64,000 nucleotides of DNA from Luteimicrobium album (lineage in GTDB: Bacteria > Actinomycetota > Actinomycetes > Actinomycetales > Cellulomonadaceae), in the NCBI RefSeq assembly GCF_030161555.1, contig NZ_BSUK01000001.1, positions 3,410,001 through 3,474,000 of the forward strand, read 5' to 3'. The position numbers and the translations under genes were made by a program. The first letter of the stretch is position 1. The number at the start of each line of letters is the position of its first letter. Below are positions 37,515 to 40,017 of the stretch, in pieces. The notes beneath the pieces are model-generated. The model was not told where the DNA came from. It did no database searches and worked only from the letters and a program-made list of their open reading frames with translations.

Positions 37515-38144
37515 ATGTGGGTCCTGACGATCGACCAACGTGCCAGCCGCCGCCGTGGCGACCGGGTCCCGGAGCTGCTCGGCGCGCTGCCGGGCGCCGG
37601 TGACCCGGGCGTCGTGCTCGCGTTCGACCGCACGGTCGGCGACGAGGTCCAGGGCGGGCTCGACGACGCAGCGACGGTCCTCGACGTCGTCCTGCGGGTC
37701 GCACGGCTGGGGGAGTGGAGCGTGGGGGTCGGCGTCGGCCCGGTCGACGAGCCGCTGCCCACGAGTACGCGTGAGGGCTCCGGCGCCGCGTTCGTGCGGG
37801 CCCGCGAGGCCGTCGAGCGTGCCAAGCGGCGTGCGGGCGAGCTCCCGGTCGCCGTCGTCGGGGCCGACGGCGGACCCGCGGCCGAGCGGGCCGCCGACGC
37901 CGAGGCCGTGCTGCAGCTCCTCGCGAGCGTCGCCGCGCGTCGGACAGACGCCGGCTGGGAGGTCGTCGACCTCCTGGCGGCCGGTCTCAGCCAGCGTGCC
38001 GCCGCGGCCCGGCTGGGCGTGTCGGCGCAGGCCGTCAGCCAGCGGGTGCGGGCTAGCATGTGGCCCGAAGAAGCCGCGGCGCGCCCGCTCGCGGCACGGC
38101 TGCTCGAGGAGGCTGACGTGCGCGGCAGAGGCGTGAGCGCATGA
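37515..38144 (+). CDS. SatD-like HTH DNA-binding protein
   Basis: 209 residues. The N-terminal two-thirds (LTIDQRASRRRGDRVPELLGAL, VVLAFDRTVGDEVQGGL, WSVGVGVGPVDEPLP, REGSGAAFVRAREAVERAKRR) is the SatD-type nucleotide-binding-like fold. The C-terminus has a helix-turn-helix LLAAGLSQRAAAARLGVSAQAVSQRVRA at about 155-182. Its stop (38142-38144) originally overlapped the ATG of a membrane-protein gene by ATGA; an IS110 element now lies inside that overlap. Regulation is probably autogenous through the palindrome 16 bp upstream. Biological role unknown. Confidence 0.75.
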   Translation: MWVLTIDQRASRRRGDRVPELLGALPGAGDPGVVLAFDRTVGDEVQGGLDDAATVLDVVLRVARLGEWSVGVGVGPVDEPLPTSTREGSGAAFVRAREAVERAKRRAGELPVAVVGADGGPAAERAADAEAVLQLLASVAARRTDAGWEVVDLLAAGLSQRAAAARLGVSAQAVSQRVRASMWPEEAAARPLAARLLEEADVRGRGVSA

Positions 38145-38161
38145 GTTCCCTGAGTCAACCT

Positions 38162-39367
38162 CTAGGCGGCCAGGTCGTGGGTTTGTCGGGTTTTGGCGTG
38201 GGTGGTGGGGTCGTAGCACACGCCGTCGCGCCAGCAGGCGTAGATCACGCGCAGCCAGGCGCGGGCGAGGATGCGCACGGCGTGGGCGTGTCGTTTCCCG
38301 GCCTGGCGGGCCTGGGCGTAGATGGTCTGGGCCCAGTCACTGGCATGACGGGAGTTGTCGGCCCAGAAGGTCAGGGCTTGTCGGGCTCGGGTGTTGGTGG
38401 CGTAGCGGAACGCGACGACGTGGGACTTGCCCGAGGCTCGGGTCACGGGCACGACGCCGGTCTCGGCCGCGGCGTGGTCGGCACTGGTCGCGCGTTCGAG
38501 GACGGGGCCGATCTCGCCGATGATCTGGCCCAGGCTGATCGTGCCCACGCGGGGCAGGGCCGCCAGCAGCGGCGCCCAGGGGTGGGTGGCCACGGCCGCG
38601 GCGATCTGGGCGTCGAGGACGGCGATCGCGGTCTTGATCGCGCGCACGAGGGCGACCTGGGTGCGCACGATCACGGTCACGATGTCGTCGGTCAGCCGGG
38701 ACGCGGGCCGGGCCGCGGCGCGCAGGCGTCCCACGAGCGTGGCGGGGGCGGTCCTGCCGCTGTAGTGCTGACGGGCCAGCCAGTCACGCATCTTGGCCGG
38801 GGCCAGGCCGGCGGCCTGGGTCGGGGTCGGGTATCGGTCCACGAACGTGAGCGCGATCTCGGAGTCCAGGCGCGAGAACAGCACGGTGGCGCCGGGGTGG
38901 TGCTCGGCCAGCAGCGCGGCGAGCTGGTTGGTCGCCGCGACCCGGGTGGCGACCTGATCGGCGCGGGCACGGACCAGGGCCTGCAGGTCGAGGGTGGCCT
39001 GCTCGGTCGGGTGCAACACACGCAGCCGGTGGCCGTCGGTGCGCAGGTAGTCGGCGAGCTTGTAGGCGTCGCCGGGGTCGTTCTTGGCCCTGGCCGCGCC
39101 CCAGCGTGGGCGGGCGGCGTTGAACGCGTTCGGGTGGATCGGCACGACCGGGTGCCCGGCGGCCAGGAGCCGGTCCACGACCAGTCCCCGGGTCGTCTCG
39201 ATCGCGACCGGGAGATCCCCGGACCGGTCGAAGCTCGCCAGCCGGGTCAGGGTCTGGGTCAGGCCTTCCTCGGTGTGAGGGCACGTCCAGCCCGCGATCT
39301 CGTGACCGTCATCGGCGATCACGCTGATCGCGTGGACGGTGTTGCCCCAGTCCCAACCGACGTGCAC
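38162..39367 (-). CDS. IS110-family DEDD recombinase (transposase)
   Basis: 401 residues, full length. GTG start at 39367 with AAGGAG 7 nt upstream; a longer upstream frame crosses the RNA region and is rejected. The RuvC-like domain shows D6 (HVGWDWGNTVH), E57 (PVAIETTRG), and D97/D100 (KNDPGDAYKLADYL). A coiled-coil-like linker follows, and the C-terminal Tnp domain has LPRVGTISLGQIIGEIG and the serine-bearing VPVTRASGKSH. All catalytic positions are present and the frame is intact, so the element could be active. Such recombinases use a bridge RNA to pick donor and target DNA. Confidence 0.95.
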   Translation of the reverse strand: MHVGWDWGNTVHAISVIADDGHEIAGWTCPHTEEGLTQTLTRLASFDRSGDLPVAIETTRGLVVDRLLAAGHPVVPIHPNAFNAARPRWGAARAKNDPGDAYKLADYLRTDGHRLRVLHPTEQATLDLQALVRARADQVATRVAATNQLAALLAEHHPGATVLFSRLDSEIALTFVDRYPTPTQAAGLAPAKMRDWLARQHYSGRTAPATLVGRLRAAARPASRLTDDIVTVIVRTQVALVRAIKTAIAVLDAQIAAAVATHPWAPLLAALPRVGTISLGQIIGEIGPVLERATSADHAAAETGVVPVTRASGKSHVVAFRYATNTRARQALTFWADNSRHASDWAQTIYAQARQAGKRHAHAVRILARAWLRVIYACWRDGVCYDPTTHAKTRQTHDLAA

Positions 39368-39424
39368 GTGCGTACTCCTTGGCTCGTGGAGGAGCACCAC
39401 CCGGTCAAGGCCGGCCGCCGGGAG

Positions 39425-39535
39425 CTCACTGCTCGGCCCTCTACGGGGCATGTTCCTGACGCCGATCGGCTGACCTCGGCCCGGCGGGGCCGGCAGAACT
39501 CATGCTCGCCGTCGAGCGGCTCGCGCAGATGGCCG
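39425..39535 (-). ncRNA. Predicted bridge RNA core: target loop and donor loop
   Basis: Read 5' to 3' on the minus strand. Target loop (39535-39491): outer stem CGGC/GCCG, 5' internal strand, hairpin GCCG-CUCGA-CGGC, 3' internal strand containing GCAUGAG (39505-39499). GCAUGAG pairs 7/7 with core plus host right target CTCATGC. Donor loop (39458-39425): CAGGAAC (39458-39452), hairpin GCCC-CGUAGA-GGGC (39449-39436), then CAGUGAG (39431-39425). CAGUGAG pairs 7/7 with core plus left element end CTCACTG, and CAGGAAC matches the right element end CAGGGAAC except for one missing G. Order and strand match the published IS621 bridge RNA. Full RNA ends (about 39590 to 39400) are not determined. Confidence 0.8.
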
Positions 39536-39600
39536 TGCACCCACCGGGACCGAGTGGTCACGACCCTACCCATGAAGGCCGCAGAAAGGATGGTCCTCCA

Positions 39601-40017
39601 GTGAGCGCGGGCCAGGTCCTCGCTGTCGCCGGGATCTCCGTGGGGCTGCTCGCGGTGAGCGTGCTCGGTGGTCTCGTCGTCGTCCCCGCTGTGCTGCGGG
39701 CCGCGGGCCGCACGTCGGCAGGCGAGGCAGCGAGCGCCGACGCCGGGCCCTCGCCGGAGGCGCCCGACGCCGCCGCCGTCCTCCGGGGCGGCACGTGGAT
39801 CGGCATCCTCGAACGGCTCGCCGTGACCGGCTGCCTGCTCGCCGGGTTCCCCGCAGGGGTCGCGGTGGTCGTCGCCGTCAAGGGCCTCGGGCGCTACCCC
39901 GAGATCCGCGACAACCCGGGGGTCTCCGAGCGGTTCGTCATCGGCACCCTCGCCTCGCTCGCGTGGGCGGGCGCCGCCGGGCTGCTCGGTCTGTGGCTGA
40001 ACGGGCTCGTCAGGTAG
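39601..40017 (+). CDS. Small membrane protein whose start was replaced by the IS110 end
   Basis: 138 residues: helix QVLAVAGISVGLLAVSVLGGLVVVPAVL, a polar Ala/Pro loop, helix ILERLAVTGCLLAGFPAGVAVVVAV, then KGLGRYPEIRDNPGVSERFVIGTLAS and a last helix. The ancestral start was almost certainly ATG 38141, giving MSAGQV with an ATGA overlap onto the regulator gene. It is now GTG at 39601, in frame, with AAAGGA (39585-39590) contributed by the element 10 nt upstream. Expression probably depends on element sequences. Function unknown; likely partner of the SatD-like regulator. Confidence 0.75.
   Translation: MSAGQVLAVAGISVGLLAVSVLGGLVVVPAVLRAAGRTSAGEAASADAGPSPEAPDAAAVLRGGTWIGILERLAVTGCLLAGFPAGVAVVVAVKGLGRYPEIRDNPGVSERFVIGTLASLAWAGAAGLLGLWLNGLVR

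Follow-up and report, generated by a model that had tools for sequence, protein, structure and literature searches.

The 64,000-nt window analyzed here, the whole stretch from position 3,410,001 to 3,474,000 of Luteimicrobium album contig NZ_BSUK01000001.1 (assembly GCF_030161555.1), contains an intact-looking element of the IS110 group whose predicted bridge RNA probably aims it at the start codons of host genes. The element lies on the minus strand between two plus-strand genes and consists of a DEDD recombinase, a left end of 238 nt, in which the RNA is located, and a right end of 16 nt. The main features of the locus, in window positions, are as follows.

37515-38144, plus strand: upstream host gene, 209 aa, stop intact; weak helix-turn-helix matches below Pfam cut-offs
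38141-38144, plus strand: host ATGA, in which the TGA of the upstream gene overlaps the original ATG of the downstream gene; it now opens the antisense frame
38146-39605, minus strand: IS110-group element, 1,460 bp with one CT core counted; a second identical copy and empty sites in genome G161 are known
39605-39604 (left) and 38145-38144 (right), minus strand: core dinucleotides
38162-39367, minus strand: DEDD recombinase, 401 aa, GTG start (Pfam DEDD_Tnp_IS110, 6e-31; Transposase_20, 2.8e-09)
38146-38161, minus strand: right end, 16 nt from the recombinase stop to the core, containing TTGACT
38141-39604, plus strand: full-length antisense frame of 487 codons, resembling hed (host expression dependent) of IS900, from the host ATG to a TGA overlapping the substitute GTG
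39601-39603, plus strand: substitute GTG start, supplied by the left end of the element
39601-40017, plus strand: downstream host gene, 138 codons, no Pfam family, read from the substitute GTG

The ends of the element were fixed by comparison with a second, identical copy in the same genome (G000:C1:2024685-2026146); the identity comprises the element plus the shared target bases GCATGAG / GTGAGCGC. In G161, a genome of the same genus, the sites of both copies are empty; they read GTGGCAGCATGAGC and GTCAGCGCATGAGC, and both carry GCATGAGC. Because both sites are empty there, the insertion can be called precise at the CT/AG core, and no target duplication beyond the core dinucleotide was found at these G161-defined sites. 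The recombinase gave only a weak match to solved structures (ISCro4 9t56, E 0.0011). No relative was confirmed in viral contigs by a pattern scan with a single protein, or in phage records at E up to 1e-30.

The comparisons below draw on numbered rows of related elements. We dropped repeat fetches (L004-L006, L008, L041, L050-L053, L055-L057, L059-L072, L076, L081, L144-L147, and L149), an 84-bp partial match (L003), another partial row (L021), a truncated one (L148), one whose left end was lost to an IS3 element (L151), two with one in-frame stop each (L030 and L079), one with no clear left end (L154), and one from the same neighbourhood as L154 (L155). L036-L039 are copies of one 34% relative, of which L036 alone was used, for stop counts only. 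S1320 is the same insertion as S842; it was excluded from the start-like count and kept in the guide-covariation and frame-open counts. Ten Streptomyces SM10 contigs, which end at or in the element, and L074, L077, and L078 provide one flank only.

The RNA and its guides, all on the minus strand, were placed as follows.

39408-39583: predicted bridge RNA, ~176 nt, with a 5' stem-loop, a target-binding loop, and a donor-binding loop (19-sequence alignment)
39523-39529: left target guide UCUGCGC, of which GCG plus the core C follow the flank (covaries with the left flank)
39499-39505: right target guide GCAUGAG, complement of CTCATGC, spelling the host start ATG plus AG (covaries with the right flank)
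39452-39458: left donor guide CAGGAAC, with an imperfect match to the right end CAGGGAAC (sequence)
39425-39431: right donor guide CAGUGAG (7/7 to the left end in 38 of 39 rows)
TTGACT in the right end (38146-38161) and GACCAT at 39595-39590: -35 and -10 of the presumed circle-junction promoter

The original prediction, made from this one sequence, had drawn a target loop and then a donor loop in the order known from IS621; its coordinates for the guides and for the flank and left-end matches were read correctly, its two inner hairpins lie where it placed them (39520-39508 and 39449-39436), and covariation among homologues supports its reading of an IS110 element with a bridge RNA. The right target guide and the right flank are perfect reverse complements (7/7 positions) in 28 of the 31 insertion rows, and none of 200,000 permutations did as well; with one row per genome and guide, the match is 7/7 in 15 of 16. 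The three rows that fall short are L028 and L058 (6/7 each) and L054 (5/7). The left target guide, which the prediction had called weak, is real over about three bases plus the core C: its last 3 nt are identical to the flank in 24 of 33 rows (0 of 100,000 permutations as good), or in 15 of 18 with one row per genome (P 1e-5). Six of the remaining rows match at 2/3 and differ by one base of a multi-copy element (G541a, G317b, YIMb, and G1179b, c, and d); G1029 also matches at 2/3, and L054 and G1039 at 1/3. These permutations on both target guides bear out the earlier argument that the matches exceed chance. On the donor side, the right guide fits the left end at 7/7 in 38 of 39 rows, the exception being L077, which has no left end. 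The left donor guide stands only in part, since CAGGAAC is present where predicted and none of the aligned elements has a perfect match to the right end.

The insertion rows carry five guide types (GCATGAG, CGATGAG, ACATGAG, CTGTGAG, and AAGTGAG). On the best recombinase tree of 20 rows, 8 guide changes are required; many Streptomyces branches of this tree are unresolved, and the strongly supported branches alone force fewer changes. Among eleven lower-identity relatives inspected by eye, the guide matches at 7/7 in nine and at 6/7 in L031 and L047.

We then considered the structure of the RNA, whose 5' end was placed from the junction promoter and whose 3' end was placed from the last donor-loop pair. 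The 19 aligned left ends have a mean column identity of 88%; within the two loops, the guide stretches vary most. RNAalifold on this alignment gave a 5' stem-loop followed by a target-type loop and a donor-type loop, with 99.4% of stem-loop cells paired and changes on both sides at 7 of 47 pairs, a count that leans high because the sequences are related; when the partners were slid by 1 to 3 columns, 31 to 51% of cells were paired and no pair showed changes on both sides. The fold of the single sequence lacked significance (z -1.3), with 28 of 200 shuffles doing as well, so the structure is seen in the alignment only: the predicted two-loop fold is conserved with compensatory changes among homologues, and the fold of the lone sequence is not unusual. 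Rfam gave no match in the whole window at gathering scores, or in 39300-39700 at E up to 5. The motif TTGACT-N17-[GC]ACCAT is present in 9 of 9 distinct circle junctions, in keeping with the junction promoter reported for IS621, and suggesting that a circle joining the right end to the left end would form a promoter from which the bridge RNA would be expressed. The left ends of L046 and L078 carry a 1-base deletion and a 1-base insertion that offset each other 60 columns apart (columns 67 and 127, alignment A2); in L046, whose right end is also known, the antisense frame stays open despite them.

The sites of insertion are host start codons in most cases. The window element sits on the ATGA overlap of two plus-strand genes, the second of which originally began ATG AGC GCG, and the second copy splits an ABC ATPase/permease pair in the same manner. 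Insertions and host background were scored with the same fixed composition classifier, which called 21 of 25 two-sided insertions start-like, versus 85 of 297 guide-matching 7-mers of the three ATG guide types in three hosts (800 kb in total; Fisher 6e-8). Among the start-like sites, stop/start overlaps made up 13 of 21 insertions versus 9 of 85 background sites (3e-6). All 33 left-flank rows, read from the start position, gave Met-Ser and an open frame of at least 29 codons; we preferred the classifier to this count because a second frame is frequently open as well and, for 7 of the 33, the sequence lacks the right flank and with it the start codon itself. The right flank is the TGA of a long coding-like open reading frame in 19 of 32 rows, single-sided rows included. 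The elements of L009, L010, and L043, whose guides are CTGTGAG or AAGTGAG, lie at GTG start codons; the gene at the L009 site encodes the 29-residue KdpF.

The start-codon location could be mainly a survival bias, in which insertions elsewhere in genes were lost and selection, not targeting design, left the pattern. The background count speaks for this, as guide-matching 7-mers are start-like in fewer than a third of cases; the guide alone thus does not pick starts, and either more of the site is read or the survivors are filtered. However, the lineages with each of the five guide types are found mostly on start motifs, and survival of sites alone would be insufficient to account for the in-frame GTG or ATG kept in the left end and for element lengths of 2 mod 3. 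We hold survival bias to be possible but rather unlikely as the main cause.

That GTG or ATG comes from a CAC or CAT directly after the core in the left end, which on the gene strand is followed by the gene's own second codon, composed of the AG of the core and the first host base. In five annotated Streptomyces plasmid records, representing four independent insertions, the downstream coding sequence is annotated from exactly the substitute start position, and in two of the five the upstream coding sequence is annotated as ending at the right core. A Variovorax plasmid (L153) has two left-end sequences ~65 bp apart, at 2156 and 2221; the outer one coincides with the annotated start of an alpha/beta hydrolase and could be the start-codon end remaining from an earlier insertion.

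Between the host start and the substitute start, no stop interrupts the antisense frame in any of the 31 rows, which come from 16 genomes or records; the frame ends either in a TGA overlapping GTG or in a TAA overlapping ATG. The element lengths in these rows are 1460, 1475, 1481, and 1484, all 2 mod 3. Nine of the eleven lower-identity relatives have a start codon in the right flank, and in these nine all frames are open (in L152 to the last codon but one) and all lengths are 2 mod 3. The frame is interrupted in both relatives seen without a start flank. In L032 (G745; a 40% relative), the guide reads GGCTGAGAG, 9/9 to the flank, the length is 1 mod 3, an antisense stop comes early, and the site, beside two gene ends, is apparently near stop codons, not starts. 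L150 (Nonomuraea) has a length of 2 mod 3 and one internal antisense stop, at 297; by our reading, it may have been retargeted to GACTGAG within a resolvase-like frame resembling a serine-recombinase gene. Twelve distinct left-end lengths, from 238 to 367 nt, are all 1 mod 3, that of L150 included, and that of L032 is 0 mod 3.

A frame open in every row could encode a functional protein, expressed through start targeting, as has been proposed for hed of IS900 in the accessible text of PMC8141618. However, in comparisons of 8 elements (28 pairs), identity is only 48-70% at fourfold-degenerate recombinase sites, which are the first positions of antisense codons, and the antisense amino acids therefore look little constrained. 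On these values we set aside a conserved antisense protein and consider a functional one quite unlikely; the frame would be a path for ribosomes rather than a product.

Alternatively, the frame could be an accident of high GC content and codon register. In-register antisense stops require TTA, CTA, or TCA codons, which are rare in these hosts and expected only 0.37-0.59 times per recombinase; L047 and L048 also have none. However, the left end is open too, with its twelve lengths all in one register, the frame is interrupted in the retargeted L032 and L150, and L036, the 34% relative, has 6 codons of these types, so that accident is, in our view, improbable. That protein-DNA recognition selects the target, with the complementarity of the guides a coincidence, can practically be dismissed: nothing was found in its favour, and among related recombinases a difference in target loop goes with a corresponding difference in insertion site.

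Taken together, the guides, their covariation, the start-codon location, the substitute start, and the open frame, all visible in the sequences themselves, make it probable that this is an IS110-group element with a bridge RNA aimed at start codons, carrying a replacement start and an open frame. The target loop would read the start region of a host gene (here GCATGAG|CGC), and the recombinase would insert the element precisely at the start codon, with a preference for coupled genes whose stop and start overlap. The stop of the upstream gene would thereby be left in place, and the translation signals of the host (ribosome-binding site and start codon) would now lead into the antisense frame, which crosses the element from end to end. 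A GTG or ATG from the left end would stand directly before codon 2, so that the sequence of the downstream protein is kept. Translating through the open frame, ribosomes could cross the element and re-start downstream, and the element would behave as an extra, nearly neutral cistron of the operon. The original prediction missed the start-codon target at a stop/start overlap, the left-end start replacement, and the full-length antisense frame.

Several points weigh against this interpretation. A single measure of the fold control was unfavourable, namely the number of further standard pair types, which was below that of 499 of the 500 shuffles. The start classifier uses base composition, not gene annotation, and its background covers three ATG guide types only; four of the 25 two-sided insertions fail it (G541b, YIMa, YIMb, and G1179d), and YIMa and YIMb may lie inside genes. 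At L047, L048, L152, and L153 the start codon is doubtful because the host frame at the site is short (13-22 codons). L054, a full-length copy on a Streptomyces NBC_01454 plasmid, has guides that misfit its own site. Related rows are not independent. GC-rich antisense is often open: per element, chance would leave the recombinase part open with a probability of 0.56-0.69 and the left end with one of 0.07-0.36; any single open element is thus unremarkable and the overall pattern is not, though the rows share ancestry.

The genes around the insertions were searched with Pfam for 30 of 33 left-flank rows and 20 of 32 right-flank rows. At E up to 0.001, a family was found in 23 of the 30 downstream frames (L026 just under its cut-off) and in 17 of the 20 upstream frames. 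We judged that eight two-sided cases split natural partner genes: two ABC ATPase/permease pairs, two ABC exporter halves, two permease subunits, an AAA_5/VWA-like pair, a lantibiotic dehydratase and LanC, a CobD/CobQ-like pair, and two bPH_2 proteins. Others are not obvious partners, among them a glycosyltransferase/VTT pair (G317a) and an ABC/APH pair (G541e). In Streptomyces sp. SM10, the breaks of ten contigs (L011-L020) fall within the element or at its edge, five giving right flanks and five left flanks; about five copies thus split the draft assembly. These single-flank contigs show similar partners, i.e., a sigma factor with an RskA anti-sigma factor, MoaC with a molybdopterin-binding protein, and ABC ATPases with ABC-2 permeases, although which contig ends pair together is our tentative assignment.

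The element shares with IS621 and the IS110-group bridge RNA elements, as described in the accessible text of PMC11208160, a DEDD recombinase, a dinucleotide core, a left-end RNA with a 5' stem-loop followed by target and donor loops, a junction promoter, and guides that covary with the target and, at least for the right donor guide, with the donor. The IS621 RNA is given there as ~177 nt, also with a junction promoter. In contrast, the same text has IS621 targeting REP elements, whereas the guide of the window element reads gene start codons. The window element also differs from IS621 in bringing a start codon with its end and in having an antisense frame that runs uninterrupted across the region encoding the RNA.

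Insertion at a translation start and a full-length antisense frame from host signals, the hed arrangement of IS900, are both found in the window element. Reportedly, a 1997 paper by Doran states in its title that IS900 targets translation initiation signals to express hed. IS900, an IS110-family element of Mycobacterium avium subsp. paratuberculosis, is described in the accessible part of PMC8141618 as 1,451 bp long with target CATGNNNNNNTCTCCTT and with hed as an antisense frame that spans the element and lacks its own start. We read CATGNNNNNNTCTCCTT as a likely start codon with a ribosome-binding site upstream. As an element that combines start-codon targets with an antisense frame, IS900 is a precedent, and it has in common with the window element a start-like target, the hed frame across the element, and a length of 2 mod 3; the target sequence differs, and start replacement and stop/start overlaps are not described in that part of PMC8141618. 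IS110 relatives from Mycobacterium and Variovorax plasmids (L048, L152, L047, and L153) likewise have CAT in the right flank (ATGAC or ATGAG on the other strand), lengths of 2 mod 3, and an antisense frame open to a left-end GTG or ATG. Their recombinases are ~45-48% identical to that of the window element (L047 and L048) or of L025 (L152 and L153), and L048 and L152 have the flank GTCAT, not CTCAT; the host start is doubtful in all four. The term 'start codon' occurs nowhere in the accessible text of PMC11208160 and once in that of PMC11187229, on protein curation. A search of the IS110/IS900 literature for start codons, ribosome-binding sites, and translational coupling, with most subscription journals outside its coverage, showed no paper that, by its listing, connects guide RNA, start codons, and a replacement start; the combination of the three appears to be new.

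More broadly, we lean towards a whole clade of RNA-guided IS110 elements, actinobacterial and perhaps also proteobacterial, whose guides read ATG or GTG and whose bodies are translatable spacers, with the order host stop, host start, antisense frame open across recombinase and guide RNA, and new start codon. They would live as near-neutral operon cistrons, and retargeting away from starts would release the frame constraint. Such a lifestyle would explain how a mobile element lives in dense operons: its guide RNA directs it to stop/start junctions, and it brings the missing start codon together with an open frame. It would also join the 1997 hed observation on IS900 to bridge RNA biology and predict reading-frame rules for natural bridge RNAs, and the insertions would offer natural examples of DNA placed between two coupled genes with both proteins undamaged.
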